Shown in pieces: positions 24,962 to 52,989 of a stretch of 64,000 nucleotides of DNA. Made by a program: the position numbers and the translations under genes. Origin of the DNA: Hydrogenophaga sp. BPS33 (GTDB lineage Bacteria > Pseudomonadota > Gammaproteobacteria > Burkholderiales > Burkholderiaceae_C); the NCBI RefSeq assembly GCF_009859475.1, contig NZ_CP044549.1, positions 4,712,001 to 4,776,000 of the forward strand. Direction: 5' to 3'. Below the pieces are notes generated by a model, which did not search any database, was not told the origin of the DNA, and saw only the letters and a list, made by a program, of their open reading frames with translations. Numbering within the stretch: the first letter of the stretch is position 1; each line of letters starts with the position of its first letter.

Positions 24962-25309
24962 TCAGCGGTGCGCGATCACGTCGATGACGCACTTGCCGCC
25001 ATAGGGATTGGCGGCCACGCCCACCACGGTGCGTGCGGGCCGAGGGTCCTGGAAGCGCGTCTCGAACTGGCGGTTCGCATGCTCGCGCAGGCCCAGGTCC
25101 ACGAGGAAATAAGTGGCTTTGACGATGTGGCGCAGTTCGAGACCCACGCTGCGCAGGCGGCGCTCCACCTCGTCCAGCGCGGCATCCACGGCCTGCGCGT
25201 CACCTTCGACGGGCTGGTGTGTCGCGTAGTCGATCGATGTCGCACCCGAGATGTAGACCACACCGTCTTTTTCGAACGCGAGGCTGTAGGGATGTTGGCT
25301 GGAGCTCAT
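24962..25309 (-). CDS. RidA-family deaminase/imine hydrolase
   Basis: A 115-residue single-domain RidA/YjgF/UK114 protein. Conserved features: 'VVYISGATSID', 'HIVKATYFLVDLG' and 'PARTVVGVAANPYGGKCVIDVIA', with Arg93 in the position of the carboxylate-binding arginine of E. coli RidA; Asp110 stands where Glu is usual. The family hydrolyses enamines/imines, and some members are pathway deaminases (RutC, 2-aminomuconate deaminase). It is the last gene of a seven-gene operon with a ring-opening dioxygenase, so a specific deaminase role is plausible. The gap to the upstream permease gene is 33 bases. Confidence 0.9.
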   Translation of the reverse strand: MSSSQHPYSLAFEKDGVVYISGATSIDYATHQPVEGDAQAVDAALDEVERRLRSVGLELRHIVKATYFLVDLGLREHANRQFETRFQDPRPARTVVGVAANPYGGKCVIDVIAHR

Positions 25310-25342
25310 CGGAATTCCTTGAGGGGAAGTTGAAGAATGCGG

Positions 25343-26137
25343 TCAGTGGCCCGCCGTCGCCACGGCCGGCCGCCACGCCAGCAGGCGCCTGGACAGCATG
25401 CCCAGCAGGCCGTCACTGGACAGCACCAGCGCGGTGACGACCACCAGGCCGGCGTACACACCCACGGTGTCCGAGGTCTGGCGTGAGTGTTCGATGTAGT
25501 AGCCCAGGCCGCTCTCGGCCACCAGGAATTCGCCGACCACCGCCGCACTGATGGCGCGCGGTATGGCCACCTTCAAGCCTGCCAGCAGATAGGGCGTGAT
25601 GGACGGCAGCAGCACTTCGCGGGTCGCTTGCCAGGACGACGCGCCCATCAGCCGCGACATCTGCAGCAAACGGCCATCGACCGCCCGCAAGCCCGAGATG
25701 GCCGTGATGAACACCACGTAGAACACCATCAGGGTCACGACCACCGCCTTGGGGGCATCGCCGATGCCGAACCACAGGATGAGCAGGGGCGCCAGCGCGA
25801 ATTTCGGCACCCCCATGGAGGCCATGATGTAAGGCTCCAGTGCGGCGGCCAGGCGTGCGCTGCGCGCCATGGCCAGGGCCACGAGCAAACCTGCGCACCA
25901 ACCCGCCACCAGACCGATGGCCGACACCCGGGCGGTCGACACCAGGTGCTGCCACACGGTACCGTCCTGCGCCATGTCCCACAGGCGCTCGAACGTGTCC
26001 AGCGGCGAAGCGATGGTGTATGGACCCAGCCACCGATGCGCGCCCTGCCACAGGAACAGCAACACAAGCAGCATGGCCCAACGTCCCGCCACCACCGACC
26101 ACGTTCCACGTCCGGTGTTCGTCGCAGCGCTGCTCAT
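25343..26137 (-). CDS. ABC transporter permease (SsuC/TauC type), second of two
   Basis: A 264-residue inner-membrane permease with six predicted helices. The cytoplasmic EAA-like loop reads 'SRLMGASSWQATREVLLPSITPYLLAGLKVAI', and the N-terminal helix is 'WAMLLVLLFLWQGAHRWL'. The family imports sulfonates, nitrate, pyrimidines or aromatics. Its ATG overlaps the stop of the ATPase gene by 4 bases. It pairs with the other permease gene at 26933. Confidence 0.93.
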   Translation of the reverse strand: MSSAATNTGRGTWSVVAGRWAMLLVLLFLWQGAHRWLGPYTIASPLDTFERLWDMAQDGTVWQHLVSTARVSAIGLVAGWCAGLLVALAMARSARLAAALEPYIMASMGVPKFALAPLLILWFGIGDAPKAVVVTLMVFYVVFITAISGLRAVDGRLLQMSRLMGASSWQATREVLLPSITPYLLAGLKVAIPRAISAAVVGEFLVAESGLGYYIEHSRQTSDTVGVYAGLVVVTALVLSSDGLLGMLSRRLLAWRPAVATAGH

Positions 26138-26928
26138 TGCACCTGCGCCCGGATGCGTTCGTGCAGGTCCGTGAAGCCGGGCTGCCCCAGCAGCGACTCC
26201 AGCGCCCGGGGCCGAGGCAGATCCACCACGTGTTCGCTGGCGATGTGTGTCGGCGCGCGCGACAGCACAAGCACCCGGTCGGCCAGGCCGATCGCTTCGA
26301 TGATGTCGTGCGTGACGAACAGGATGGTCTTGCGCTTGACCGTCCAGAGCTTGAGCAGGTCGCTTTGCAGGTGCAGCCGGGTCTGCGCGTCCAGAGCGCC
26401 GAAGGGTTCGTCCATCAGGATGATGGGCGGGTCGTACACCAGCGTGCGGATGACCGATGCCCGCTTGCGCATGCCGCCCGAGAGCTCGTGCGGGTAGTAC
26501 TTCTCGAAACCCAGCAATCCCACGGCGTCGAGCAATTCGCGCGCGCGTTCCAGGCCCTGGGCGTCCAGGCGGCCCTGCACCTTCAGCGGGAACACCACGT
26601 TGTCGAGCAGGTTGCGCCAGGGCAGCAGGTTGTCGTCTTGCGTGACGTAGCCGATGCGGCAGTTCAGGCCCGGGCTGGCCAGCGGCAGCGAAGCGTCGGA
26701 CACGCGCTCTCCCGCCAGCCAGATCTCACCCTTCGAAGGCAAGTCGATCTGCGACAGCAGATTCAGCAAGGTGGACTTGCCCGATCCCGATGGTCCGATG
26801 ATGGTGACGAACTCGCCCTCGGCCACCGAGAAGTTCATGTCCTCGATCACCCAGCGCACCGATTCTGCGGCGTCGCGCGTCTGGAACGCGCGTCCCAGGG
26901 TTTTGACTTCAAGCAGCGCAGGGGTCAT
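26134..26928 (-). CDS. ABC transporter ATP-binding protein (SsuB/TauB type)
   Basis: A 264-residue ATPase. Walker A is 'GPSGSGKST', the Q-loop lies in 'GYVTQDDNLLPWRN', the signature is 'ELSGGMRKRAS', Walker B is 'IILMDEPFGALD', and the switch histidine is in 'LFVTHDI'. It energises import by the two flanking permeases; as the only ATPase in the operon it probably works as a homodimer under a permease heterodimer. The ATG at 26928 begins the domain; in-frame sequence upstream lies inside the neighbouring permease gene. Confidence 0.95.
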   Translation of the reverse strand: MTPALLEVKTLGRAFQTRDAAESVRWVIEDMNFSVAEGEFVTIIGPSGSGKSTLLNLLSQIDLPSKGEIWLAGERVSDASLPLASPGLNCRIGYVTQDDNLLPWRNLLDNVVFPLKVQGRLDAQGLERARELLDAVGLLGFEKYYPHELSGGMRKRASVIRTLVYDPPIILMDEPFGALDAQTRLHLQSDLLKLWTVKRKTILFVTHDIIEAIGLADRVLVLSRAPTHIASEHVVDLPRPRALESLLGQPGFTDLHERIRAQVQ

Positions 26929-26932
26929 GGCT

Positions 26933-27730
26933 TCATCCGATGGAAGAGATCTTGTGGGCATCCGAAGAGACGGGCGGCCGCCAGGCGAGCAGCCAACGCT
27001 CGAGCAGCGCCACGCAGACATTGGCCACCAGCGAGATCAATGTGATGGCCAGGAGCGCGACGAAGACGCCGCGCGTGTCGAAGTCGGTCGCGCTGGCCTG
27101 CACGAGATAGCCCAGCCCCCGGTTCGACGAAATCAGCTCCGTGATGACCGCGCTGCTGATGGCGTACGGCACCGCCACGCGAAAGCCGCTGAGCACATAG
27201 GGCAGCGCGCCGGGAAGCGTCACGTGCCATGCCACATGGCGCCCGTTGGCCCCCGCGATGCGCGCCATGTTCACCAGGTTGCGGTTCGCCGACTCGATGC
27301 CCGCACGCGTGCTGAACAGCACGATGAAGAACACCGCGCTGGCCACCACGGCAATCTTCGATTCGATGCCGATGCCGAAGACCACGATGAACAAGGGCGC
27401 GATCGCCACCTTGGGAATACCGTAGCCCGCGACGAGGTAGGGCTCCAGCATGTCTTGCAGCTTCGGCCAGTGCTGCAGCAGCAATGGCACGGCGATGCCC
27501 GGCACACCACCGAGCACGATGCCCACGAGCGTGGCCTGCAAGGTGTAGCTGGCCTGGAACGCCAGGGTGCCGTTCGTGGCCACCTCGACGAAGCCCTGCA
27601 CCGTTGACCATGGCGACGCCACCCAGTATCTGCCGGCGGCCCAACTGGCCACTTGCCAGATGGCCACGAGGGCGACCAGCACCCACACGCGGTCCCAGGT
27701 GGCCTGCCGCAACCAGGCGCGCTTGCTCAT
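26933..27730 (-). CDS. ABC transporter permease (SsuC/TauC type), first of two
   Basis: A 265-residue permease related to the one at 25343 but clearly diverged. Six helices; coupling loop 'ARIAGANGRHVAWHVTLPGALPYVLSGFRVAV'; N-terminus 'WVLVALVAIWQVASWAAGRYW'. The ATG at 27730 overlaps the stop of the dioxygenase gene (27727) by 4 bases, so transporter and enzyme are translationally coupled, strong evidence that the imported compound is the dioxygenase substrate or its precursor. Confidence 0.93.
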   Translation of the reverse strand: MSKRAWLRQATWDRVWVLVALVAIWQVASWAAGRYWVASPWSTVQGFVEVATNGTLAFQASYTLQATLVGIVLGGVPGIAVPLLLQHWPKLQDMLEPYLVAGYGIPKVAIAPLFIVVFGIGIESKIAVVASAVFFIVLFSTRAGIESANRNLVNMARIAGANGRHVAWHVTLPGALPYVLSGFRVAVPYAISSAVITELISSNRGLGYLVQASATDFDTRGVFVALLAITLISLVANVCVALLERWLLAWRPPVSSDAHKISSIG

Positions 27731-28800
27731 ACGGCCGTCGCAATGCCAGTGGCGAGATTGAGAACGGGATCGTGGAAACGCCCTCGGTCCATGAGGACTT
27801 CGCCATCGAGGTGCACCGTGCAGTCGCACATAGGCATGTCGATGTGCCCCTTGGTGTCGCGCTTGCCACCCATGTCGGTGTTCGGCCCGGTGGAGAACAG
27901 AAAGTTGCCCGAGAACACGCGCGCCATGATGTGCAGTTCGTCGAAGTCGTTGCCGTGCCGGATGATCTGGTCCCAATGTCCACCGGGGTGCAGACCCACA
28001 CCGAGGTGCGACACCGCATACGGGTCCAGGTCGTCTTCGGCGCGCTTGTTGCTGTCGAGCCAGTAGCGGAAGGCCTTGGCGTCGAGCCCACCGTCCACGC
28101 TGCGGATGAAGCCATCGCGCACCTCGAGCCGCACCGGGTTCTCCACCGCACGGATGTACGGCAGGATCCACATGTCACCCGGTTGCAGCACCACGGTGCC
28201 GTTGGCCGAGCCTTCGTCGGGGAAGTTGGTGATGTGGCCCGCGCCCCAGGCATCGAAGCGCCCCGCCTCCTCGGAGAAGCCGTACTGCTCCTTCACACGG
28301 AACTCGCCGCGGCTCCACGTCAGGTCGGTGCCGGCATCGGAGGTCAGGCGGATGTGCTTCGCCGCGCCCCAGAGCGCGGACGCCCGCTTCACAGCCTCCT
28401 TCAATCCCGGTGGCGACTGCAGCTTGGCCAGCACCTCGGGCGAATCGGCAATGGACAGCACACGGGCACCGGCCGCGCGCACCGTCTTCTGCCAGCCACT
28501 GAAGTTGGGCGGGTGGAACACGCAGATCAGATCGGCACTGCTGAGCGCCTCCAGCATGCCCTTGGCCTTGCCCACCACTTCGACGCCGATGCGCAACCAG
28601 TCGGGCGAGTTGCTCATGCCGATCTCGTAGGCATTGGCACCCAGGTCTTCGGCAGCGGCAAAGCCCGCCTGCACGTAGTCGCGCCGGGTGCTGCCATCGG
28701 TGAGCAGCACCACGGTCTCGCCCGGCGAGACGCGGCAGAGCTCGAACTGCTTGCGAAACAACGCAGGGATGCGAGCGGGGTTGATCTGTTGTTTGCTCAT
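27727..28800 (-). CDS. 2,5-dihydroxypyridine 5,6-dioxygenase homologue (NicX-like, M29-peptidase fold)
   Basis: A 357-residue protein of the NicX family, mononuclear Fe(II) dioxygenases that open 2,5-dihydroxypyridine to N-formylmaleamate. The metal ligands I recall for P. putida NicX (His265, His318, Asp320) have counterparts at His265 ('AVSHLGVGLHP'), His319 and Asp321 ('GHIDMPMCD'), almost in register. The family fold is that of M29 aminopeptidases, not classical ring-cleavage enzymes. The next gene is an alpha/beta hydrolase fitting the following deformylation step. ATG 28800 is chosen over an in-frame ATG at 28824. The pyridine hydroxylases that normally make the substrate are not in this window, so a related N-heterocycle is possible. 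Confidence 0.85.
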   Translation of the reverse strand: MSKQQINPARIPALFRKQFELCRVSPGETVVLLTDGSTRRDYVQAGFAAAEDLGANAYEIGMSNSPDWLRIGVEVVGKAKGMLEALSSADLICVFHPPNFSGWQKTVRAAGARVLSIADSPEVLAKLQSPPGLKEAVKRASALWGAAKHIRLTSDAGTDLTWSRGEFRVKEQYGFSEEAGRFDAWGAGHITNFPDEGSANGTVVLQPGDMWILPYIRAVENPVRLEVRDGFIRSVDGGLDAKAFRYWLDSNKRAEDDLDPYAVSHLGVGLHPGGHWDQIIRHGNDFDELHIMARVFSGNFLFSTGPNTDMGGKRDTKGHIDMPMCDCTVHLDGEVLMDRGRFHDPVLNLATGIATAV

Positions 28801-28843
28801 GCGATCTCTTGTCCTCTCATGCAATGGTGCAAGCCACGGTTCG

Positions 28844-29659
28844 TCACGGGTTCAGATGGGCTTCGACGGCTTGCGCGAACTGCACCGGCTTCTCCAGAAA
28901 GGACCAATGCCCCGCGCCCTCGATGGCGCGGTACTTGGCGCCTGGAATGGCTTGTGCGATGCGCTGGTTGAGCGGCTCGGGCGTAACGCCATCTTCGGTG
29001 CCGCAGATCACGGCGGTGGGCGCTTCGATCTGACCGGCAAAGGCGAACAGGTCCGACCCCGCCACCATGCGCGCCGCCTGGCCAAAGCCCGGCTGCCGCA
29101 GCCGCGCCAGCATCGCGCTGGCATGCTCCAGCAGCTCCGGCGATGCCGAAGCAGAAAGCAACTTCGGCGCCCTCGCCCGGGCATAGACCCAGGGATCGCT
29201 GGCATCCTGCGTGAGACGCGTCGACAGGATCTGGCTGCGCTTTTGCTCGTCGTAGCCCAGGTGACCCGAAGAACAATCGGCCAACACCAGGCGGGCGACG
29301 CGCCGCGGCCAGAGACTGGCCAAGCGCGCGGCGATCAAGCCCCCCATCGAGTGCCCCAGAACGTTCGCACGCTCCAGACCCAGGGCATCCAGCAAGTCCA
29401 AGGCCGCGCGGGCGTAATCGTCCAGCGTCGGGTCCGGCACCGCAAACGGCGTCGATCCGCCATAACCCGGCGCGTTCCAGGCCAGCAGACGCCGCCCCTG
29501 GCCCAGCGCCGAGAAGACGATGTCCCAGGCGTCTGTGCCGCCCCCCACGCCGTGCATCAGCAAGAGCGGCTCCCCTGTACCTTCGTCCCGAACCTCGACA
29601 TCGCCTCCGCGCGACAAGCCCACACGGCGCAAGACTGGCGCTGCGGTTTCAACGGACAT
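28844..29659 (-). CDS. Alpha/beta hydrolase, N-formylmaleamate deformylase (NicD)-like
   Basis: A 271-residue hydrolase. The nucleophile elbow 'NVLGHSMGGLIA' gives Ser104, the oxyanion 'LLLMHGVGGG' is upstream, the catalytic His251 lies in 'EGAGHWSFLEKP', and the acid is expected in 'ICGTEDGVTPE'. Length and architecture match NicD, which removes formate from N-formylmaleamate, the product of NicX. Sequence alone fits many ester or C-C hydrolases; the functional call depends on its position directly upstream of the NicX-like gene (43 bases) in one operon. Confidence 0.8.
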   Translation of the reverse strand: MSVETAAPVLRRVGLSRGGDVEVRDEGTGEPLLLMHGVGGGTDAWDIVFSALGQGRRLLAWNAPGYGGSTPFAVPDPTLDDYARAALDLLDALGLERANVLGHSMGGLIAARLASLWPRRVARLVLADCSSGHLGYDEQKRSQILSTRLTQDASDPWVYARARAPKLLSASASPELLEHASAMLARLRQPGFGQAARMVAGSDLFAFAGQIEAPTAVICGTEDGVTPEPLNQRIAQAIPGAKYRAIEGAGHWSFLEKPVQFAQAVEAHLNP

Positions 29660-30656
29660 ATTGGTTGTTGAAAAGGGTTTCGTATTCCTTGGAGCGGTCT
29701 GCTTCCTTGAGCAGGCCCGCGCGCACGTTGTAGAGCTCGACGTTCTTGAGCTGGTCCACGTTCACCAGGGGCACCTTGGGCGTTGCGCGCTTGAGGTATT
29801 CGACCGATTGCGCCAGCACGTCCTTGGACAGCGCGGGGAAGCGCTTGGCCAGAATGGCCTGCGTCTCGGCCGGCTTGTCGTGGATGAAGGCAGTGGCCTC
29901 CGCGAACACCTTGCCCATGGCTTCGCACAGCTGCTTCTTCTCGGCGCACACCTCGGGACGCGTGACGACAAGTTCGTGCGCGAAGGGCATGAGGTCGGAG
30001 GGGTCGCCATCGGCGCCGCTGGCCAGCATGACAGCCTTCTTTTCCACCACGGGCGGCAACGCCCACGGCAAGGTCATGCCGAATGCATCGATGCGTCCCG
30101 ACTCCAACGCGGTCTGCATGCTGCTCGGGTCCATGGGCACCACCCGCAACGTGGCCGGATTGATGCCGCCGGCCTGCGCCACCAGCATCACATACGCATG
30201 GGCGATCGAGTTGACCGCGTCCACCGCAATGGTCCTGCCGGCGAGCAGCTTGGCCCGTTGTGCCAGCGGTTGCGAAGCCTGGAAGCCGGCCGCATCGGCG
30301 AGATCCTTGCGGAAGGCGATCTGCACGATCGGCCGATCGATCGTGGTGGCGATGGCCAGCATCCGCTGCCCCCGCGCAGCGGCCCGCGTGAACGAACTGC
30401 CTGAAGACTGCGTGAAGTCCGTGGCCTTGGAGACCACGGCGTTGAAGGCGCCCACGCCCTTGATGACGGTCGTCTTCACCGACATGCCGTGCTTGCCCCA
30501 CAGATCGAGGTCGTCGGCGATGTAGCTCACCGTGAAGGCGAGACTGGTCGCGGGAATGGCCATCGTGGTCTCCTCGGCAGCGCTGGCCGCGTGAGGCACA
30601 AGAACACCCCCCAACAGACAACCCGCCGCCAGCCACATGCTGCGCAATAGATTCAT
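29649..30656 (-). CDS. ABC transporter substrate-binding protein (NMT1/THI5-like)
   Basis: A 335-residue periplasmic receptor and first gene of the seven-gene operon. A signal peptide occupies about residues 1-27 ('WLAAGCLLGGVLVPHAASA'). 'IPATSLAFTVSYIADDLDLWGKHGM' is the NMT1/SsuA-like lobe start, and 'FRKDLADAAGF', 'LAGRTIAVDAVNS' continue the fold. A strong GGAGG lies 7 bases before the ATG at 30656. The stop overlaps the hydrolase start by 11 bases. This family binds pyrimidines, sulfonates, nitrate or aromatics; here an N-heterocyclic acid is inferred from the neighbours. Confidence 0.9.
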   Translation of the reverse strand: MNLLRSMWLAAGCLLGGVLVPHAASAAEETTMAIPATSLAFTVSYIADDLDLWGKHGMSVKTTVIKGVGAFNAVVSKATDFTQSSGSSFTRAAARGQRMLAIATTIDRPIVQIAFRKDLADAAGFQASQPLAQRAKLLAGRTIAVDAVNSIAHAYVMLVAQAGGINPATLRVVPMDPSSMQTALESGRIDAFGMTLPWALPPVVEKKAVMLASGADGDPSDLMPFAHELVVTRPEVCAEKKQLCEAMGKVFAEATAFIHDKPAETQAILAKRFPALSKDVLAQSVEYLKRATPKVPLVNVDQLKNVELYNVRAGLLKEADRSKEYETLFNNQYVR

Positions 30657-30815: not shown

Positions 30816-31586
30816 ATGTCCGATTCGCCCATACTCAAGAAAGGCCTGGAGGCCGTACAGATCGTCGCGCTGCGCGGAGAGGTTTCAGCCCGCGAACTCG
30901 CCGATGCGATGAACCTGCCCAAGAGCACGGCGCATCGGCTGCTGACCAACCTGGTCGGTGTGCGCCTGCTGCAGATGGCGCGCCGCCCCGAAGGCGACCA
31001 CTACGCCCTGGGCTCCCTGGTCGGTGAACTCAGCGGCGCCGCGTTCATGTGGCGCCCTTTGGTGCAACACGCCAAACCCGAGCTGGCCGCGGTGCGCGAC
31101 GACACCGGTGAGACCGTGGCCATCCACATGCTGTACGGCAACCGCCGCGTGCTGCTGGACCAGGTCGTGAGCTACCACCAGTTGCGCTGGGTCTATGGAC
31201 ATCACATGGCGCCCATGCCCTTGAAGGCCGGCGCCACCGGAAAGATGTTCCTCGCGATGCTCGAGCCGCACGAGCTGGAAGAGGTGCTGCGGCGCGAACT
31301 CGGCCAAGCGCAGAAGCGCGATCAGGCCAAAACCCTGGAAGCCTTGCGCGCGAAGATCGACGCCATCCGATCGCAGGGCTATTCGATTTCTGCCGATGAA
31401 CTCAACCCCGGCATCACGTCCATCGCCGTCCCTGTCGTGCAACAGCAGACCGATTCGCTGCCGCGCGCAGTGATCAGCCTGGCGGCACCGAGCCTGCGCG
31501 TCACCGACGCTGCCTGCAAGCAATACGTGCGCCGGCTTCGCCAGGCCGCCAGACGCATCGCAGCATCCATGGCGGCCGCTGCCTGA
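30816..31586 (+). CDS. IclR-family regulator of the NicX/NicD-like operon
   Basis: A 256-residue regulator. The N-terminal winged HTH covers about 8-65 ('EVSARELADAMNLPKSTAHRLLTNL'). The C-terminal GAF-like effector domain includes 'LKAGATGKMFLAML' and 'GYSISADELNPGITSIAVPV', the usual ligand-pocket segments. It is divergent from the ABC/dioxygenase operon, so it most likely controls it. IclR proteins of catabolic clusters often respond to aromatic or cyclic acids. Confidence 0.9.
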   Translation: MSDSPILKKGLEAVQIVALRGEVSARELADAMNLPKSTAHRLLTNLVGVRLLQMARRPEGDHYALGSLVGELSGAAFMWRPLVQHAKPELAAVRDDTGETVAIHMLYGNRRVLLDQVVSYHQLRWVYGHHMAPMPLKAGATGKMFLAMLEPHELEEVLRRELGQAQKRDQAKTLEALRAKIDAIRSQGYSISADELNPGITSIAVPVVQQQTDSLPRAVISLAAPSLRVTDAACKQYVRRLRQAARRIAASMAAAA

Positions 31587-32126: not shown

Positions 32127-32226
32127 GACCTGACCAGAACCTGACTCAGCTGTGCACCACAGCAGCAGGTGCCTCCGCAAGCGCCCGACCCAACGGGCCG
32201 CTCTTGTTCACCCATTCCCCTCCACC

Positions 32227-32715
32227 ATGCAAATCAAAAGCCGCAAAGACTTTGCCTCCGGCCTGATGTTCATGTTGATCGGTGCCAGCTTTGCCATCGG
32301 CGCGACCAACTACACCATCGGCAGCGCCGCCCGTATGGGCCCCGCCTACTTCCCCTTGATGCTGGGCATTCTTCTGTGCGTACTGGGCGCAGGCGTGGTC
32401 TTCTTCTCGCTGATCAAAGGGCGGGAGGACGGCGCGCCCATCGGCCGCATAGCCTGGAAACCCGTGCTGCTCATCATCGGCGCGAATCTGCTCTTCGGCA
32501 TCCTGCTCGGCGGCATTCAAACCCTGGGCGTGCCGGCCGTGGGGCTCATCGGCGCCATCGTCGTGGCGGTGGTCATCGCCAGCATGGCGGCCAGCGAATT
32601 CCGCTGGCGCGCCGCCCTGGTGCTGGCCGCGGTTCTGGCCGTGGGCAGCTATCTCGTTTTCGTGCTTGGGCTGAACCTTCAGTTCCAAGTGTGGCCCCAT
32701 TTCCTCGCAGGTTGA
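32227..32715 (+). CDS. tctB: Tripartite tricarboxylate transporter small membrane subunit TctB
   Basis: A 162-residue protein with four predicted membrane helices ('FASGLMFMLIGASFAIGA', 'YFPLMLGILLCVLGAGVVFFSLI', 'VLLIIGANLLFGILLG' and paired C-terminal helices). 'SAARMGPAYFPLMLG' is the TctB signature. It forms the inner-membrane complex with TctA (6 bases downstream). The ATG at 32227 starts the family sequence. No tctC receptor gene is adjacent. Confidence 0.92.
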   Translation: MQIKSRKDFASGLMFMLIGASFAIGATNYTIGSAARMGPAYFPLMLGILLCVLGAGVVFFSLIKGREDGAPIGRIAWKPVLLIIGANLLFGILLGGIQTLGVPAVGLIGAIVVAVVIASMAASEFRWRAALVLAAVLAVGSYLVFVLGLNLQFQVWPHFLAG

Positions 32716-32721
32716 ACCACC

Positions 32722-34236
32722 ATGGAATTGCTTGACCACCTCGCGCTGGGTTTTGGTGCCGCCTTCACGCTGCAGAACGTGCTGTACGCGCTCATCGGCT
32801 GCCTGCTGGGAACGCTCATCGGCGTGTTGCCCGGCATCGGCCCGCTGGCGACCATCGCCATGCTTTTGCCCACCACGTACGCGCTGCCACCGGTGGCGGC
32901 CTTGATCATGCTGGCCGGCATCTACTACGGCTCGCAATACGGCGGATCCACGACCGCGATCCTGGTCAACCTGCCGGGCGAGTCGTCGGCGGTGGTCACC
33001 GTCATCGATGGCCACCAGATGGCCAAGAAGGGCCGCGCCGGTCCGGCGCTGGCAGCGGCGGGCATCGGCTCCTTCTTTGCCGGCAGCGTGGCCACGCTTG
33101 TGCTGGCCGCATTCGCCCCGCCGCTCACCGAGCTCGCCCTGAAGTTCGGCCCGACCGAGTACTTCGCGCTGATGGTGCTCGGCCTGATCGGTGCGGTCGT
33201 GCTCGCCTCCGGCTCCCTGCTCAAGGCGATCTGCATGATCATCACCGGCCTGCTGCTGGGCCTGGTCGGCACCGACGTGAACTCGGGCGTGGCCCGCTTC
33301 TCCTTCGACATTCCCGAGCTCACCGACGGCATCGCCCTGGTCGCCATCGCCATGGGCATCTTCGGCTACGGCGAGATCATCGCCAACCTGGCCAAACCGG
33401 AAGAGCACCGCCAGGTCTTCACGGCCAAGGTCAAGGGTCTGTTCCCGACCGCGCGCGACTTCCGCGACATGGTGCCGGCCATCCTGCGCGGCACCGCGCT
33501 GGGCTCCGCGCTGGGCATTCTTCCTGGTGGCGGCTCGCTGCTGTCTTCCTTCGCGTCATACACGCTGGAGAAAAAGATCAAGAGCCGCCCGGACGAGGTG
33601 CCGTTCGGACAAGGCAACATCCGTGGCGTGGCAGGCCCCGAATCGGCCAACAACGCGGGCGCGCAGACCTCGTTCATTCCCCTGCTCACGCTCGGTATTC
33701 CCGGCAATGCGGTGATGGCGCTGATGGTGGGCGCGATGACGATCCACAACATCCAGCCGGGTCCGCAGGTGATGACCAGCAACCCCGAACTGTTCTGGGG
33801 CCTGATCGCCTCGATGTGGATCGGCAACGCGATGCTGATCATCCTGAACCTGCCGCTGATCGGGGTCTGGGTCAAGCTGCTGACCGTGCCTTATCGCTGG
33901 CTGTTCCCCGCCATCGTGGTGTTCTGCGCCATCGGCGTCTACTCCACCAACAACAACACCTTCGACGTGTGGATGCTGGGCTGGTTCGGCATCGTCGGCT
34001 ACATCTTCCACAAGCTGGAGTGCGAGCCCGCGCCCTTGCTGCTCGGCCTGATCCTGGGTCCGATGATGGAAGAGTATTTGCGCCGCGCGCTGCTCATTTC
34101 ACGCGGGGACTGGAGCGTGTTCGTCACCCGCCCGATCTCGGCCACGCTGCTGGCCGGTGCGGTGTTACTCGCGCTGATCGTGCTGCTGCCCAGCGTGAAG
34201 CAGCGCCGCGAGGAGGCATTCAAGGAAGAAGGTTGA
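32722..34236 (+). CDS. tctA: Tripartite tricarboxylate transporter large membrane subunit TctA
   Basis: A 504-residue, roughly 12-helix permease. Conserved blocks: 'GTLIGVLPGIGPLATIAMLLP' near the N-terminus, 'YYGSQYGGSTTAILVNLPGESSAVVT', and 'GPESANNAGAQTSFIPLLTLGIPGN'. It couples sodium or proton gradients to uptake of carboxylates handed over by a TctC/Bug receptor. Three Bug receptors occur elsewhere in the window (4527, 41699, 56922) without their own membrane subunits and could use this pair. Confidence 0.95.
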   Translation: MELLDHLALGFGAAFTLQNVLYALIGCLLGTLIGVLPGIGPLATIAMLLPTTYALPPVAALIMLAGIYYGSQYGGSTTAILVNLPGESSAVVTVIDGHQMAKKGRAGPALAAAGIGSFFAGSVATLVLAAFAPPLTELALKFGPTEYFALMVLGLIGAVVLASGSLLKAICMIITGLLLGLVGTDVNSGVARFSFDIPELTDGIALVAIAMGIFGYGEIIANLAKPEEHRQVFTAKVKGLFPTARDFRDMVPAILRGTALGSALGILPGGGSLLSSFASYTLEKKIKSRPDEVPFGQGNIRGVAGPESANNAGAQTSFIPLLTLGIPGNAVMALMVGAMTIHNIQPGPQVMTSNPELFWGLIASMWIGNAMLIILNLPLIGVWVKLLTVPYRWLFPAIVVFCAIGVYSTNNNTFDVWMLGWFGIVGYIFHKLECEPAPLLLGLILGPMMEEYLRRALLISRGDWSVFVTRPISATLLAGAVLLALIVLLPSVKQRREEAFKEEG

Positions 34237-41585: not shown

Positions 41586-41698
41586 AAGAAAACCCACGTC
41601 GAAACACGGTGCTCCCTAGAATTTCCTGTCATCACGCCGTCACGGGCAGTTGTGCCAAGCGACGTGCCACACCCTTCCAACGAACGAGAAAGCCTTCC

Positions 41699-42658
41699 GT
41701 GATCCGCCATTTGATTCCCGCCCTCGCCTTGTCCGCCTGCGCCACCGGCGCTTTCGCACAAGCCTTCCCCAACAAGCCCATCACCATCGTGGTGTCGGTG
41801 CCCGCCGGCGGCACCATCGACGCCATCGCGCGCATGGTCGCCAAGGACATGGGCGAAGCCCTGGGCCAGCCGGTGGTGATCGACAACCGCGCCGGCGCCA
41901 ACGGCAACATCGCCGCCGACTTCGTGCGCCGCTCGCCCGCCGACGGCCACACGCTGCTCATGCTGGCCTCCAGCACGCTCACGCTCGGCCCCTACGTGAT
42001 GGACAAGGTGCCCTTCGACCCGGTGAAGGACTTCGCGCCCGTGGCCATGACCGCCGGCCTCAACATGGCCTTGATTGCCCACCCCAAGGTCGGCGTGAGC
42101 GACGTCAAGGGCCTGGTTGCCGCCATGAAGGCAGCGCCCGGCAAGCTGAACTTCTCCTCCACCGGCAACGGCTCGTTCCCGCACGTGGCCGGCGCGCTGC
42201 TCAACCTGGAGACCAACACCACGGCCACCCACGTGCCCTACAAGGGCCTGGCACCCTCGATCCAGGATCTGCTGGCCGGCGTGGTCGACTTCACCTTCGA
42301 CTCCGGCAGCGCCATCCACGTGAAGAACGGCAAGCTCAAGGCGCTCGCGGTCATCGGACCCAAGCGCGCCGCCGCCCTGCCGGACGTGCCCACCTTCCGC
42401 GAACTCGGCCTGCCCGAGCTGGAGAAGGTGAGCGGCTGGCACGGCGTGTTCGCGCCCGCCGGCACGCCAGCGGCCGTGGTGAACCGCCTCAATGCCGAGA
42501 TCAACAAGAGCCTGAAGAAGCCCGAGTCCGTCGAGCGCGTGCAGGCCATGGGCTTCGAGAGCGTGAGTACCACGCCGGCCGAACTCGGCTCGGTGCTGCA
42601 GCGCGACTTCAAGACCTTTGGCGAGCTGATCACCCGCACCAAGATCAGCGTCAACTGA
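41699..42658 (+). CDS. Bug/TctC-type substrate-binding protein
   Basis: A 319-residue periplasmic receptor. It starts with GTG at 41699 after a GAGAAAG ribosome-binding site; residues 1-21 are a signal peptide ('HLIPALALSACATGAFAQ'). Then come the Bug signatures 'FPNKPITIVVSVPAGGTIDAIAR', 'NGNIAADFVRRSPADGHTLL' and 'HVPYKGLAPSIQDLLAG'. Ligands are usually carboxylates. It is followed by a strong hairpin and then alcohol and aldehyde dehydrogenase genes in the same direction. No tctAB is adjacent. Confidence 0.92.
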   Translation: MIRHLIPALALSACATGAFAQAFPNKPITIVVSVPAGGTIDAIARMVAKDMGEALGQPVVIDNRAGANGNIAADFVRRSPADGHTLLMLASSTLTLGPYVMDKVPFDPVKDFAPVAMTAGLNMALIAHPKVGVSDVKGLVAAMKAAPGKLNFSSTGNGSFPHVAGALLNLETNTTATHVPYKGLAPSIQDLLAGVVDFTFDSGSAIHVKNGKLKALAVIGPKRAAALPDVPTFRELGLPELEKVSGWHGVFAPAGTPAAVVNRLNAEINKSLKKPESVERVQAMGFESVSTTPAELGSVLQRDFKTFGELITRTKISVN

Positions 42659-46120: not shown

Positions 46121-47527
46121 TCACCGGTTCGCCGTCACCAGCCACATCGCGATGTCCGGGAACACCAGCAGCAGGCACACCGCCAGAATGTAGACCAGCA
46201 TGAACGGCATCACACCCGAAAACACGTCGGTGATGGGCCCGGCTTGTCGTCGCATGCCTTGCAGCACGTAGAGCACCGTGCCGTCGGGTGGGCTGATCAT
46301 CGCGATCTCCACCAACATGGTGATCACGACACCGAACCAGATCGGGTCGTAGCCCAGCGCCACCACCACGGGAAAGATCAGCGGGATGGTGGTGATCACC
46401 ATCGCCATGCCTTCCATGAACGTGCCCATGGCCAGGTAGAAGCAGATGATGATCAGCATGACGCCCCATCCTGGCAGCGGCAGTTCGGTGAGGAACTTTG
46501 CGAGCATCTGCGGCACGCCGAGCGAGGACAGGATGTAGTTCAGGAAATACGCACCGTAGAGGATGAGCGCGATCATGGAGGTCGTGCGCGCCGTGGCGCG
46601 CATCGAGTCCATCATCATCGACCACTTGAGCTTGCGGTCGACCAGTGAGATGACAACCGCGCCCGCCACGCCCAGGGCCGCCGATTCGGTGGGCGTGGCC
46701 CAGCCGGCGTAGATCGAGCCGAGCACCAGCGCGATCAGGATGACGGTGGGCAACAGATCCGCCAGCGACGCGATGCGGTGCCGCCAGTCGACGCGCTGCT
46801 TCTCGTCCGTGTCTTCGTAGCTTTTGTTCCGGCTGTGGATCAGGATCACCGCCGTGAACAACAGGATCACGAGCAGGCTCGGCCCCACCGCCGCCAGGTA
46901 GAGATCGCCCACGGAGGTCTCGGTGATCAGGCCATAGATGATGAAGGTGATGCCGGGCGGAATGAGGTTGCCCAGGGCGCCGCCGGCGGCCAGGGATCCC
47001 AGCACCATCTTGGGTGAGTAGCGGCTCTTCTCGAAGTACGGCAGGGCCACGGAGCCCATGGTCGCCGCCGTGGCCACGCTCGATCCGGCGATGGCCGAGA
47101 ACACGCTGCAGGATGCAATATTGGTGTGCAGCATGCCGCCCGGCATGCGTCCCATCCAAATGTTGAGCGTGCGGTAGAGCTTCTCGGAGATGCCCGCACG
47201 CAACATCACCTCACCCATCAGCAGAAACAGGGGCACCGAGACCAGCACGAAATTGTTCGACGGCGCCCACAGCATGTCGCCGATGGAATTCCAGAACGGC
47301 CGGTCTGACAGGCCAAAGCCTGCCAGCAGGCCCAACAGACCGAGTGCGGCGCCCACGTACACGCCACCCCCGAAAAACACCACGAAAGCCGCGAGCACCG
47401 CCCCCAGCGCCCACCAGGGGACCGCGGTGGCCGCGCTGGCGGCGGCACCGGCATTGGGCGCAGCACCAAAAAGAGACGCGATGCCCACCACCAGGCCCAC
47501 GATGACAATGAATCCAATGGCCAGCAT
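46121..47527 (-). CDS. dctM: TRAP transporter large permease (DctM type)
   Basis: A 468-residue polytopic permease. Family blocks: 'PLFLLMGEVMLRAGISEKLY', 'ASCSVFSAIAGSSVATAATMGSVALP', 'GNLIPPGITFIIYGLITETSVGDLYLA', and 'PTESAALGVAGAVVI'. It drives sodium-coupled uptake of a carboxylate bound by the DctP receptor. The start codon directly abuts the DctQ stop. It is the last gene of a six-gene operon beginning with the cupin gene. Confidence 0.95.
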   Translation of the reverse strand: MLAIGFIVIVGLVVGIASLFGAAPNAGAAASAATAVPWWALGAVLAAFVVFFGGGVYVGAALGLLGLLAGFGLSDRPFWNSIGDMLWAPSNNFVLVSVPLFLLMGEVMLRAGISEKLYRTLNIWMGRMPGGMLHTNIASCSVFSAIAGSSVATAATMGSVALPYFEKSRYSPKMVLGSLAAGGALGNLIPPGITFIIYGLITETSVGDLYLAAVGPSLLVILLFTAVILIHSRNKSYEDTDEKQRVDWRHRIASLADLLPTVILIALVLGSIYAGWATPTESAALGVAGAVVISLVDRKLKWSMMMDSMRATARTTSMIALILYGAYFLNYILSSLGVPQMLAKFLTELPLPGWGVMLIIICFYLAMGTFMEGMAMVITTIPLIFPVVVALGYDPIWFGVVITMLVEIAMISPPDGTVLYVLQGMRRQAGPITDVFSGVMPFMLVYILAVCLLLVFPDIAMWLVTANR

Positions 47528-48118
47528 TTACAAACCCTTGTTGTCCACACCACGGCCCTGCCCGACCGCTTCCAACGTTTCCGTGGCTTCGTCCACGTAG
47601 CTGCGCGCCACGAGCAGTCGGTCGATACCGTCGTAATCGCGATTGCACATGAGCGAAGCGGCGCGCGCGATGAGCGCCAGCACCCCGAGCAGCAACAACG
47701 CGAAGCCCGCAGCCCAGACACCCTGAGGAATGGCCAAGGGGATATGCCAGATCGACAGATCGGTCGCGCCGATCTCGTAGGTGTCTTTCACCAGGAGCAG
47801 CGCGCCCCAGGCCATGAACGCGCCGAAAATCAGCAGCGCGGCAATCGCCACGCCGTGCAGCCACACACGCACCGACAGGGGTGTCTTCTGTACCAGCACA
47901 TCGATGCGCACATGGGCGCGTTCGATGAGCGTGCCGGCCAGACCCCAACTCATCGCGGCTGCCATGAGATAGCCGGTGAGCTCGGTGGTGGATTCGGTGG
48001 AGAAGCCGAGCAAGCGCCGACCCACGACGTCAAAACAGATCAGTAGCGTGATCGCCAGATAGGCAAACCCCGCGACGGTCAGCGCATGGCTGCTGAGCCA
48101 GGTGATGAGACGCAGCAT
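47528..48118 (-). CDS. dctQ: TRAP transporter small permease (DctQ type)
   Basis: A 196-residue membrane protein with four helices ('LTVAGFAYLAITLLICFDVVGRRLL' first). 'STELTGYLMAAAMSWGLAGTLIERAHVRIDVL' matches the DctQ consensus. A cytoplasmic tail of about 35 residues follows the last helix. It forms the membrane complex with DctM. It is 6 bases downstream of dctP. Confidence 0.93.
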   Translation of the reverse strand: MLRLITWLSSHALTVAGFAYLAITLLICFDVVGRRLLGFSTESTTELTGYLMAAAMSWGLAGTLIERAHVRIDVLVQKTPLSVRVWLHGVAIAALLIFGAFMAWGALLLVKDTYEIGATDLSIWHIPLAIPQGVWAAGFALLLLGVLALIARAASLMCNRDYDGIDRLLVARSYVDEATETLEAVGQGRGVDNKGL

Positions 48119-48124
48119 GCTTGC

Positions 48125-49195
48125 TCAACGCGGTGTGTAGGGGATGCCGGTCACCGGCGCGATCACTTCCTTGTAAGCGGCCAGGCACTTGTCCCCGCAG
48201 CGCTTGAACCAGCCCGGCAGCACCGATTCGGTGAGTTGCTGGTGAACGGTTTGGATGGCTTCGGCCTGCGGCTTGTTCTCCACCATCGGCTTGCGCACCG
48301 GCTTGTGGATCTTGCAGTCGGCATTGCGTCCCACGTTGCAGGCGATGCCATCGGTGTTGGCCTCCAGGCCGAGCGCCCACTGCGCGTTCTGCACATCGGC
48401 AAAGGTCTTTTCCATGAGCGCGCGAACACCCGGATCGAGCTTCTCCCACCAGGCCAGGTTGACGAAGTATCCGGCCACCGACCACGACAGCGGCAGAGAA
48501 TACAGGTGCGAACTGACCTCGGCCCAGTTGGCGCTGCTGCCCGCGCTCGCGCCAGACACGCTGCAGTCCAGCGTGCCGCGTTCCAACGCGGTGTAGACCT
48601 CGCCGAAGGCTATCGAGACCGGCTGCGCGCCAATGCCCTTGAGCAGATCGGAGGTCGACGGGCCGTTGGTGCGGATGCGCAGGCCCTTCAAGTCGTTCAG
48701 GCTGTTGATCGGCTTGCGGCAATAGAACATTTGAGCCGTGAACGGAAAGGTTGCCACCAGCTTGATACCCAGGCGCTGCAGCTCCTTGTTGGCCAGCGGC
48801 ATCATGCCGTCGGCGATGCGGCGCGCCTTGTGGATGTCGGTGCTCAAGCCGGCCAGATCGATGCCATCGAGAATGGGCACATCGCCCGACACCGTCGTGA
48901 GCGGCGAGGTGGAGATGTCGATCTGGCCCGATCGCACCAGACGCAGCACTTCGGGGCCGGACACGTTGCGCTCCGGCCAGGTCGAGAGCACCACTTCGAT
49001 GCGCCCGTTGGAGGCTTTGGCCAAACCATCGCGCAGGATTGGCTGGTCCACGCGGGTGTATTGCGGCAGCGTGGGCGTGGCCTGCGTCACGGCCTGGATC
49101 ACCACTTTGGGTCCCGGCGCGAGCTGGGCAATGGCTGCGCCGGGCAGCAAGGTGGCGGCGAAGGCAAGCGGGAGAAGGGTTTTGAGGTGCTTCAT
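48125..49195 (-). CDS. dctP: TRAP transporter periplasmic solute receptor (DctP type)
   Basis: A 356-residue receptor with signal peptide 'LLPLAFAATLLPGAAIAQ'. DctP features include 'PLANKELQRLGIKLVATFPF', the ligand-contacting 'LNDLKGLRIRTNGPSTSDLLKGIGAQPVSIAFGEVYTALERGTLD' pattern with its carboxylate-binding arginine, and four cysteines toward the C-terminus. Ligand is probably a carboxylic acid. The ATG at 49195 overlaps the NIPSNAP gene stop by 4 bases. Confidence 0.94.
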   Translation of the reverse strand: MKHLKTLLPLAFAATLLPGAAIAQLAPGPKVVIQAVTQATPTLPQYTRVDQPILRDGLAKASNGRIEVVLSTWPERNVSGPEVLRLVRSGQIDISTSPLTTVSGDVPILDGIDLAGLSTDIHKARRIADGMMPLANKELQRLGIKLVATFPFTAQMFYCRKPINSLNDLKGLRIRTNGPSTSDLLKGIGAQPVSIAFGEVYTALERGTLDCSVSGASAGSSANWAEVSSHLYSLPLSWSVAGYFVNLAWWEKLDPGVRALMEKTFADVQNAQWALGLEANTDGIACNVGRNADCKIHKPVRKPMVENKPQAEAIQTVHQQLTESVLPGWFKRCGDKCLAAYKEVIAPVTGIPYTPR

Positions 49196-49566
49196 GTGCG
49201 TACGTCCGTTGAGGTGGGGCCCATCCCGTCGCTGGCGTTGTCCGCCGCCAGTGCGATCGGCGGAGAAAACGGCGCGGGAACCAAGATTTCGTTGTGCATA
49301 TCCCTGATGAGTGGCAACACGGTCGGCACGAAGGCCTGCCATTGCGGGTCCGCGTAGAGGTTTCGCCGCCGCCGCGTTCGCTCGTCGTGCGACTCGAACG
49401 CCCAGAGGTGCATCACCTTGTTGATCGATCCGAATTCGGTGGAATAGAAACCCAGAAGACCGCCCAGATGGCGCTTCTCGATCTCGATGCCACTCTCGGC
49501 CATGAGCTGCATGAAGCGTGCCACTTGACCCGGATGCAAGACGTAGGTGCGGGATTCGACGATCAT
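49192..49566 (-). CDS. NIPSNAP-family protein
   Basis: A 124-residue dimeric alpha/beta-barrel protein. 'MIVESRTYVLHPGQVARFMQLM' is the NIPSNAP start, and 'LLGFYSTEFGSINKVMHLWAFES' and 'DERTRRRRNLYADPQWQAFV' complete the ferredoxin-like fold. Such proteins often accompany catabolic operons but their chemistry is poorly defined; some dimeric barrel relatives are small-molecule isomerases or oxygenases. It lies between the 2OG oxygenase (10 bases) and dctP (overlap). Confidence 0.9.
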   Translation of the reverse strand: MIVESRTYVLHPGQVARFMQLMAESGIEIEKRHLGGLLGFYSTEFGSINKVMHLWAFESHDERTRRRRNLYADPQWQAFVPTVLPLIRDMHNEILVPAPFSPPIALAADNASDGMGPTSTDVRT

Positions 49567-49576
49567 GGCGCGCGCC

Positions 49577-50371
49577 TCACGACCAGAGCACCAGTTCGCC
49601 ATCAGGCATGCGCCCGACAAACGATCCGATGGAGATGCGGCTTCCGCCCGGCTGGGGCGTGCCGCCCGCGATCTCGTGCGGATTGCGGGTGTTGAAGATG
49701 ACCACGTCTCCGGCCGAGGCCTTGTACACCGCCTTGGGCGCTCCTTCGACCAGTTCGCGTGAGAGTCCGTAGCTCTGCGGAATTTCTTCCTCGTCCACCT
49801 CCGGGTCCCACGGTGCGTTGTGCACCGTCGTCTCACCGCCGGACTGCAATTCTTCGGCAAAGAAGTTCCAGCCCAGCTGGCCGTCGATGCGGCCGATGGC
49901 GTAGTGCGGCGAGTTCACCGGCGCCCAGTCCACATGCAGATCCACCCCTTCGCCGGCGAAGCGGATGATGCCCGCGTAGTATGAACCGAGATCTTCCCGT
50001 GCCACGTGCACCGGGTTCGGCCACACCGCCTGCAAGCGGTCGATCAGGCGCTGCAGGGGATCGAACGTGCAGCGTTGCACGACGTCGACCAGATCGCGAT
50101 CCGCCTGGGGAACGGCGGCGAAGAAGTCTTCCTTCTGCCGTCCCCAGCGGTACTCGAACTGCGCCATGCCGATGTAGCCAATGCGCTTGGCCACGCTGTA
50201 GTACTTGATGTTCCCGGTGCGCGCGGCTTCGGTGAAGCTCTTGCACTCGGCGAGCGTGGCAAATCCGGGGATGCGGATCACCGCGATCCGGTTGTCCAGC
50301 AACAGGCGCAGGTTGTCCTGCGTCAGCCCGTGCTCGCCTTCGGTGGTCCAGGTGGGTGCGGTGGAGGCCAT
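49577..50371 (-). CDS. Fe(II)/2-oxoglutarate-dependent oxygenase
   Basis: A 264-residue double-stranded beta-helix oxygenase. The iron triad is His146-x-Asp148 ('VDLHVDWAPVN') and His232 ('TRNPHEIAGG'), and Arg245 ('GSRISIGSF') fits 2-oxoglutarate binding. It hydroxylates or otherwise oxidises a small molecule with release of succinate and carbon dioxide. It is 12 bases downstream of the cupin gene and upstream of a NIPSNAP gene. The substrate is unknown but should be the compound imported by the TRAP system or a close product. Confidence 0.85.
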   Translation of the reverse strand: MASTAPTWTTEGEHGLTQDNLRLLLDNRIAVIRIPGFATLAECKSFTEAARTGNIKYYSVAKRIGYIGMAQFEYRWGRQKEDFFAAVPQADRDLVDVVQRCTFDPLQRLIDRLQAVWPNPVHVAREDLGSYYAGIIRFAGEGVDLHVDWAPVNSPHYAIGRIDGQLGWNFFAEELQSGGETTVHNAPWDPEVDEEEIPQSYGLSRELVEGAPKAVYKASAGDVVIFNTRNPHEIAGGTPQPGGSRISIGSFVGRMPDGELVLWS

Positions 50372-50383
50372 GGCTTGCGCTCC

Positions 50384-50800
50384 TCAATCCTGCGACACCC
50401 AGGTCTTGCGGACCGGCGATTTGATCTCGAGCTGCTCGCAGTCCTCCAGCGCCTCGCTGAAGTGCGGCACACCACGGGGATGCCGCCAGGAGGTGCCCGG
50501 GCCTGCGATGAACTCCTCGCCCCCGATCACCAGACGGAGCTTGCCGCGGATCAGGTAGGCCACGGTCTCGTGGTCGTCGTGCTGGTGCACCGGATCGATC
50601 AAGCCCTTCTCGCGCAGCACGTGGAGCATGAGGATGTCCTCACCCACCATGGCGCGTCGCACTTCGACGACGCCCTTGGGCTTGACGCCCTCGACGGCGG
50701 CAAGGCGCTCGGGCGCGATGGCCGCCAGGGTGGTGAAAAAGCTCGCGGTGGGCGCGATGTAGCGGGGGTCGGTTGCCGTGGTCATCGTGGTGTCGTGCAT
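50384..50800 (-). CDS. Small cupin-domain protein
   Basis: A single cupin of 138 residues. Motif 1 is 'HQHDDHETVAYLIRGKLRLVIGGEE', with the His/Asp cluster able to bind metal; motif 2 is 'GPGTSWRHPRGVPHFSEAL'. It may be an isomerase, dioxygenase or ligand-binding protein. The ATG at 50800 was chosen; 50785 and 50836 are alternatives. It is the first gene of the minus arm, starting 40 bases from a perfect palindrome. Confidence 0.85.
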   Translation of the reverse strand: MHDTTMTTATDPRYIAPTASFFTTLAAIAPERLAAVEGVKPKGVVEVRRAMVGEDILMLHVLREKGLIDPVHQHDDHETVAYLIRGKLRLVIGGEEFIAGPGTSWRHPRGVPHFSEALEDCEQLEIKSPVRKTWVSQD

Positions 50801-50839
50801 CGGATTGCAGAAGCCCGCAGCGTAACAGCGATGCATTCA

Positions 50840-50851
50840 ATTGTCGACAAT
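50840..50851. promoter_or_regulatory. Candidate GntR operator 1 (ATTGTCGACAAT)
   Basis: A perfect 12-base palindrome in the 159-base gap between the cupin (minus) and racemase-like (plus) genes. TTGT-N2-ACAA dyads are typical of FadR/FCD-type GntR regulators, and such a gene lies in the plus arm at 51718. It is 40 bases upstream of the cupin ATG, over the expected promoter. Confidence 0.65.
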
Positions 50852-50913
50852 CAACGGCGATTTTTTTGAAATCGCTTTTCATACTCCCTTGAACCACATC
50901 AAAACGGAACTTG

Positions 50914-50925
50914 ATTGTGTACAAT
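50914..50925. promoter_or_regulatory. Candidate GntR operator 2 (ATTGTGTACAAT)
   Basis: The same ATTGT-N2-ACAAT dyad as operator 1, with only the central two bases differing. Its centre is 74 bases from that of operator 1, close to seven helical turns, so both face the same side of the helix. It contains TACAAT, a good -10 element for the plus arm, 35 bases before the TTG start at 50960. Confidence 0.65.
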
Positions 50926-50959
50926 TCGACCAAATTTTCCGACGTCTCAGGAGAACACT

Positions 50960-51703: not shown

Positions 51704-51717
51704 AAGTAGCCGCGAGC

Positions 51718-52975: not shown

Positions 52976-52989
52976 ACACCCTTCGACCC

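Follow-up and report, generated by a model that had tools for sequence, protein, structure and literature searches.

A seven-gene operon of Hydrogenophaga sp. BPS33 combining an NMT1-type importer with a NicX-like, putative ring-opening dioxygenase

Which ring compound is opened by an enzyme that has the fold and iron ligands of NicX, the 2,5-dihydroxypyridine 5,6-dioxygenase of Pseudomonas putida KT2440, but carries other residues where NicX holds its substrate? The question is raised by an operon in Hydrogenophaga sp. BPS33 (genome of 6.77 Mb in three contigs), found in a stretch of 64,000 nucleotides at positions 4712001-4776000 of contig C1 (NZ_CP044549.1), hereafter the window. Seven minus-strand genes fill positions 30656-24962, with adjacent pairs overlapping by 4-11 nucleotides or lying 4-43 nucleotides apart, and read in 5' to 3' order as an NMT1-type receptor, an alpha/beta hydrolase, the NicX-like protein, a permease, an ATPase, a second permease, and a Rid-family protein. 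We favor, with a probability of about 0.6, a model in which the operon imports and oxidatively opens a hydroxylated N-heteroaromatic compound other than 2,5-dihydroxypyridine, with subsequent deacylation and perhaps enamine deamination. The operon is apparently uncharacterized, its ring-opening enzyme having a known fold but belonging to a separate group, and no title or abstract opening listed in searches of open-licence PMC papers mentions that group. The genes of the operon and its divergent neighbor are as follows (ABC, ATP-binding cassette).

29649..30656, minus strand: ABC substrate-binding protein, NMT1/THI5-like (PF09084, E 6.6e-13)
28844..29659, minus strand: alpha/beta hydrolase, outside the NicD group (PF00561, E 3e-32)
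27727..28800, minus strand: NicX-superfamily protein of a separate group, putative Fe(II) ring-opening dioxygenase (7cn3, E 1.4e-49)
26933..27730, minus strand: ABC permease (PF00528, E 2.5e-27)
26134..26928, minus strand: ABC ATPase (PF00005, E 3.2e-29)
25343..26137, minus strand: ABC permease (PF00528, E 9.5e-29)
24962..25309, minus strand: Rid-family (RidA/YjgF) protein, putative enamine/imine deaminase (PF01042, E 2.5e-16)
30816..31586, plus strand: divergent IclR-family regulator (PF01614 and PF09339)

Iron site and substrate pocket of the dioxygenase

An earlier, sequence-only reading of this DNA had described a tightly overlapped seven-gene operon with an NMT1-like receptor, two permeases, and one ATPase; its coordinates proved exact, and the four profile matches listed above bear out the composition of the importer. 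The NicX-like protein matches NicX (Protein Data Bank, PDB, entry 7cn3) over residues 6-348 in a phmmer search. Its AlphaFold model (mean predicted local distance difference test score of 89.1) superposes on the NicX structures 7cn3 and 7cup with template-modeling (TM) scores of 0.88-0.92, compared with 0.50-0.62 for the M29 peptidases PepS and AmpT, and structural alignment with NicX gives 29-30% identity. Residues His265, Ser303, His319, and Asp321 align with His265, Ser302, His318, and Asp320, the iron ligands of NicX as given in the available part of PMC7910607. Three of them had been picked out beforehand as nearly in register, and Ser303 completes the set; none of the four varies across the 128 sequences of the operon dioxygenase's group. 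The protein is very probably a ring-opening dioxygenase. Homology gives good support for ring opening; the substrate is what we infer below. The sequence-only reading had named close kinship with true M29 aminopeptidases as grounds for refutation. These are the next structural matches, and the protein would then be an aminopeptidase or other hydrolase instead. With the M29 profile PF02073 giving no match at E<=10, the full NicX iron set in place, and a far better match to NicX in both sequence and structure, the check came out on the NicX side and this alternative has a negligible probability.

In a tree of 42 rows, the superfamily divides into the operon dioxygenase's group (20 rows, support 100/100), a group with NicX and NdpE (12 rows, 98/91), and a third group (10 rows, 100/100); the sequence L043_nic was omitted. 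An approximately unbiased test constrained only the operon dioxygenase to the NicX group, separating it from its relatives, so its p of 2e-6 adds little. Another family member of the BPS33 genome, at locus L010, lies in the third group, whose loci (L010, L040, and L045-L052) have their own branches of alpha/beta hydrolases.

The available text of PMC7910607 reports Glu177 and His189 as substrate-binding residues of NicX (the E177A variant keeps 2.7% and the H189A variant 6.9% of the activity), credits His105, His189, and Glu177 with specificity, and reports activity on 2,5-dihydroxypyridine alone. Glu177 and His189 are both kept in NicX of KT2440 and in NdpE, and within the NicX group in 10/12 and 11/12 members, respectively. 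In the operon dioxygenase, NicX positions 104, 105, 175, 177, 189, and 194 are occupied by Asn99, Phe100, Lys170, Gln172, Ala184, and His189, so that Glu177 has become Gln172 and His189 has become Ala184. Across the 128 sequences of its group (P0053 and P0055, shorter than 330 residues, were excluded from residue counts), Gln predominates at position 177 (118 sequences, against 9 with Tyr and 1 with His), whereas position 189 varies (His 70, Ala 22, Gln 20, Met 13, others 3). His fills position 194 in 117 sequences, and two residues prevail at position 104 (Asn 73, Leu 54) and at position 175 (Lys 64, Met 54). The nearest 56 sequences are uniform, with Asn, Phe, Lys, Gln, and His at positions 104, 105, 175, 177, and 194 in 56/56 each. 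Because the residues that grip the ring nitrogen and the 2-oxygen in NicX are changed, the operon dioxygenase probably acts on a substrate other than 2,5-dihydroxypyridine. The replacement of His105 by Phe was dropped as evidence for a new substrate, as Phe is also present in 11/12 NicX-group members. Lys170, whose equivalent is found in half of the group and in all of the nearest sequences, could hint at an anionic substrate; it is kept as a mere hint because the available part of PMC7910607 locates Val175 of NicX in channel I, at a distance from the active site.

The hydrolase, the Rid protein, and the importer

For the alpha/beta hydrolase, Ser104, Asp223, and His251 form the likely catalytic triad. 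The sequence-only reading had considered the protein to fit N-formylmaleamate deformylase, which holds at the level of the fold. In a 24-row tree, however, the NicD/NdpF group (10 rows) is split off at 100/100, and the operon hydrolase joins the hydrolases of the related loci L005 and L006 (99/97) and then that of L004 (100/98). The motif DPPxSGPG is present in 10/10 NicD-group hydrolases and in 0/12 other aligned ones, the operon hydrolase included (the alignment omitted the partial L006 sequence and L080_b), and the NicD group lacks an Asp at the place of Asp223, the likely acid. The claim that NicX and NicD proper form the core of the operon is therefore not supported: both enzymes fall outside those groups, substrate residues are changed, and a profile search of the seven genes found neither an amidase nor a maleate isomerase.

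Pairwise distances of dioxygenases and hydrolases correlate over 27 pairs (r 0.81, 0/5000 permutations), and also within the operon's group (9 pairs, r 0.66, 0/5000), the third group (9 pairs, r 0.92, 0/5000), and the NicX group (9 pairs, r 0.84, 2/5000). Five of the 9 pairs in the operon's group were inferred from contigs of equal size and the same source (230424, 14767, 41304, 5535, and 2803 bases). Homologues of the dioxygenase (P0001, 87%), the hydrolase (69%), and the Rid protein (P0243, 85%) from a Hydrogenophaga sp. are each reported on a contig of 230424 bases, and the equal sizes suggest that a single contig holds all three; the dioxygenase among them is the closest named homologue among the matches listed, which are the best 120 of 3441 from 7997 candidates scored. 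The Rid search itself returned 66 proteins, including the operon's own. Arg93 of the operon's Rid protein aligns in PDB alignments with the Arg of the PAR stretch in solved Rid proteins, which we take to be the catalytic residue.

The importer is complete, with an NMT1 receptor, two permeases, and one ATPase. The receptor has no PDB relative at E<=0.001. One relative, 32% identical, is encoded in the same genome at locus L086, whose ATPase is 61% and whose two permeases are 51 and 52% identical to those of the operon. Another, at 31%, is on a Variovorax plasmid (locus L085) together with a pair of permeases of 39-40% identity and an ATPase known from the annotation, and both importers lie with genes for a flavin adenine dinucleotide (FAD) monooxygenase and VOC/glyoxalase-fold proteins. 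The IclR gene, 50% identical to the IclR gene of locus L004, is the likely local regulator and probably controls the operon. An IclR operator common to L004 was sought and rejected: two copies of the half-site ATGGGACA are present in the window, a count that 45/100 shuffles reach.

In the route that we propose, the receptor, permeases, and ATPase would import a hydroxylated or hydroxylatable N-heteroaromatic. The dioxygenase would use one Fe(II) held by the four aligned ligands to insert O2 and open the ring, as NicX does, and the alpha/beta hydrolase would strip an N-acyl (formyl) group, like NicD and presumably KpiB. NicX and NicD leave an amide, so the amidase NicF follows in the nic pathway. 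If the ring lacked the 2-oxygen, C-C cleavage next to the nitrogen would instead give an N-formyl enamide, and deformylation would give an enamine. Without an oxygen on the ring carbon across the nitrogen, the product would be an enamine or imine rather than an amide, which would explain why a Rid protein, which could hydrolyze the enamine, stands at the end of the operon in place of an amidase. In NicX the 2-oxygen is touched by Glu177 and His189, and their replacement here agrees with such a ring. A precedent is KpiB, discussed in the available part of PMC7356986 as hydrolyzing an N-formyl enamide to an enamine once the pyridine ring has been opened. Ring hydroxylation, where needed, would be supplied from elsewhere in the genome, perhaps by a Rieske oxygenase at C1:2556065.

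We put forward this enamide/Rid route in its entirety only tentatively. Somewhat more doubtful is the broader proposal of a new enzyme class, in which a NicX-fold Fe(II) dioxygenase would act on a pyridine or related N-heteroaromatic without a 2-oxygen, followed by a dedicated non-NicD deformylase and, in this genus, by a dedicated Rid protein yielding an oxo-acid and ammonia, with no need for NicD, an amidase, or a maleate isomerase. Counting against this proposal, the hydrolase is linked to the dioxygenase in only 4/10 loci of the group, as described below.

Relatives' loci and the rest of the genome

Genes in the fetched loci were called with a simple GC-based caller that misses some genes, such as the annotated ATPase of L085. 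In locus L004 (dioxygenase 81% identical), genes for an IclR regulator, a permease, an NMT1 receptor, an ATPase, and a hydrolase lie on one strand, and those for a Rieske oxygenase and the dioxygenase on the other. Locus L005 (79%; a near-copy of P0009) has the order TctC, hydrolase, dioxygenase, FAD protein, Rieske oxygenase (73% identical to that of L004), and TctC, and L006 (76%, on a 5 kb contig) has a partial hydrolase followed by the dioxygenase. The Rieske oxygenase is thus beside the dioxygenase or one gene from it in L004 and L005, the two closest relatives with long flanks, and the Rieske proteins of both loci match a putative phthalate 4,5-dioxygenase best in the PDB. This pairing with an enzyme absent from the operon makes it doubtful that the operon is self-contained, as the sequence-only reading had proposed. 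In BPS33, the homologue of the L005 Rieske oxygenase at C1:2556065 (58%, 580 bits; next best 152 bits) adjoins a 2Fe-2S-domain gene, an MmgE/PrpD gene, and a short-chain dehydrogenase. Separately, contig C2 of the BPS33 genome has five equal-scoring Rieske matches at 169571, 180380, 191193, 223257, and 234066, three of the four gaps being ~10.8 kb, which looks like a tandemly amplified unit.

The oxidizing partner of the dioxygenase varies among loci. Neither a hydrolase nor a Rieske oxygenase was found in L007 (56%), where a flavin mononucleotide (FMN)-dependent dehydrogenase adjoins the dioxygenase, or in L008 (48%), where a luciferase-like monooxygenase and a P450 are near it. Molybdenum-hydroxylase genes are nearby in L039, L074, and L075 (50-53%), which lack the hydrolase. 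In L040 (51%), the sole hydrolase match is ~7 kb away, beside a dioxygenase of the third group; the 51% relative there (genome G180, contig C4) stands beside a cupin gene and a fused FAD-binding/FMN-oxidoreductase gene, a possible ring-activating partner.

The Rieske partners bear on whether the ring that is opened is an N-heterocycle at all. A hydroxylated or aminated carbocyclic aromatic could be opened instead, with the hydrolase acting on a lactone or another bond, and the best NCBIfam model for the hydrolase is the enol-lactonase PcaD (136 bits, under the cut-off of 255.85). The phthalate 4,5-dioxygenase-like partners and the change of all three residues credited with NicX specificity would fit this alternative as well. 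We consider it unlikely, as NicX, the characterized relative, cleaves a pyridine according to the available text of PMC7910607, and a Rid protein suits nitrogen chemistry.

Several observations weigh against import and opening of an N-heteroaromatic other than 2,5-dihydroxypyridine as we propose it. Gln at position 177 also occurs in 2/12 NicX-group members (L081 and L082, each with a 4-hydroxyphenylacetate-hydroxylase-type gene nearby), and position 189 is His in more than half of the operon dioxygenase's own group (70/128), so the residue changes are no proof of lost 2,5-dihydroxypyridine activity. The four loci with a linked hydrolase (the operon, L004, L005, and L006) are the nearest ones, and no hydrolase is beside the dioxygenase in the more distant L007, L008, L039, L040, L074, and L075. 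Even in L004 the hydrolase is just 34-35% identical to that of the operon, and the receptor gave no match to the operon receptor. The operon contains no hydroxylase gene. None of 24 loci has a match to the Rid protein, and among the matches listed 230424 bases is the only contig size common to Rid and dioxygenase, which leaves the Rid step weakly supported. Two further size coincidences of dioxygenase and hydrolase contigs (1340 and 1610 bases) involve contigs with no room for both genes, which shows that contigs can agree in size by chance.

The operon was rarely met among the genome samples searched. Among 399 genomes of the order, 26 match the dioxygenase at 1e-30, those in the operon's group being BPS33 itself, G175 (53%), and G180 (51%); among 399 genomes of the family, 3 match at 1e-65 (BPS33 itself and relatives at 53% and 51%). 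Of 67 genomes of the genus, 38 match at 1e-30, with a best identity of 37% outside BPS33 and most matches unsorted into groups, and in the phylum (398) and class (369) samples BPS33 alone matches at 1e-75. One GTDB scan gave five loci, and 210 plasmid records match, all below 60% identity. This patchy distribution suggests horizontal gain.

The operon does lack the known nicotinate hydroxylases, as the sequence-only reading stated. Elsewhere in the genome, locus L009 (C1 ~606.6-614.2 kb, within C1:598000-616000) encodes a dioxygenase 46% identical to NdpE, a NicD-like hydrolase 56% identical to that of Variovorax SRS16, an isochorismatase (61%), an FAD monooxygenase (42%), and a molybdenum hydroxylase (30%); genes of these kinds are also carried by the SRS16 plasmid (L080). 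The L009 dioxygenase keeps Glu177 and His189 and is a stronger candidate than the operon's enzyme for acting on 2,5-dihydroxypyridine in BPS33.

A second catabolic set is present in the window at 46121-55121, with a TRAP transporter, a cupin, a maleate-isomerase-like (Amdase) protein, a GntR/FCD regulator, a NicF-like isochorismatase, a class III CoA-transferase, and a 3-hydroxy-3-methylglutaryl-CoA (HMG-CoA)-lyase-like protein; it might process a substituted maleamate. The isochorismatase (52364-52975) is 39% identical to NdpG and has 3ot4/3uao, presumably Bordetella NicF, as its best PDB match, and the maleate-isomerase-like protein (50915-51703) matches 4fq5 (E 5.1e-9). An NdpH query gave no match in the genome, in a search without a positive control, although the protein at 50915-51703 is a remote relative. 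In a local blastp search, NdpH matched L042, L043, L044, and L053 and not the other 7/11 NicX-group loci. With NdpH seen in so few of these loci and a remote relative in the window, absence of a maleate isomerase is a weak argument. Elsewhere in the window, at 32152-34236, TctB and TctA genes (read from the letters) follow a MarR gene without an adjacent TctC gene, with TctC at 41609-42658; the TctA candidate gave no NCBIfam match at 1e-25.

These neighbors allow two further readings of the operon. It could be a second nicotinate-type set, the enzymes acting as NicX and NicD on 2,5-dihydroxypyridine, with the amidase and isomerase coming from elsewhere, as the NicX fold, the kept iron ligands, and the isochorismatase and maleate-isomerase-like genes ~20-22 kb away would allow. 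We give this little credence: both enzymes belong to groups separate from NicX and NicD, with substrate residues changed and DPPxSGPG absent, the fuller nic-type cluster is L009, and the distant set comes with a GntR-family regulator and a TRAP transporter of its own and is separated from the operon by unrelated genes. Alternatively, a substituted dihydroxypyridine could be opened by the operon's enzymes and its product deamidated, isomerized, and split by the 50-55 kb set, for example via a methylated maleate, a route that the isochorismatase, maleate-isomerase-like, CoA-transferase, and HMG-CoA-lyase-like families fit and that would place both halves inside one 64 kb window. It too seems improbable, as the sets are ~20 kb apart, with separate regulators and transporters and with glycosyltransferase and DNA-repair genes between them, and no NdpG- or NdpH-like gene was found in L004 or L005.

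Comparison with known systems

Uptake and opening of an N-heteroaromatic other than 2,5-dihydroxypyridine, the reading that we prefer, would set the operon apart from the systems it resembles. Like the pyrimidine catabolic Rut system, it encodes a Rid-family protein together with an alpha/beta hydrolase, but the matches to RutC (26.5 of 169.1 bits) and RutD (65.8 of 238.5 bits) are far under the cut-offs, and RutA and RutB are absent from the operon. KpiB of Arthrobacter sp. IN13, a 3-(N-formyl)-formiminopyruvate hydrolase, is likewise an alpha/beta hydrolase acting on an N-formyl enamide after pyridine opening, a likeness of described role; its partner dioxygenase KpiC is of the amidohydrolase family and not NicX-like, according to the available part of PMC7356986. 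The N-formylmaleamate deformylases NicD and NdpF are also alpha/beta hydrolases encoded beside a NicX-superfamily dioxygenase, an arrangement found in the operon and in 9/11 NicX-group loci searched, but they form another branch, have DPPxSGPG, and lack an Asp at the place of the likely acid Asp223. An isochorismatase resembling maleamate amidase is present in 10/11 NicX-group loci and in L079 (the source of the query), and is missing from the operon, with one ~22 kb away; an NdpH-like maleate isomerase, also missing from the operon, is a weak defining feature of nic-type clusters (4/11 loci). Closest of all is NicX itself (7cn3, 7cnt, and 7cup), which shares the fold, length, and four iron ligands of the operon dioxygenase and differs from it in group and at Leu104, His105, Val175, Glu177, His189, and Phe194, all replaced. 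A public source names many group members among the matches listed '2,5-dihydroxypyridine 5,6-dioxygenase', a name that their altered pocket and separate grouping speak against. Identification of the substrate would correct the names in this group, show how bacteria open another ring compound, and could add a second reaction to the NicX fold.

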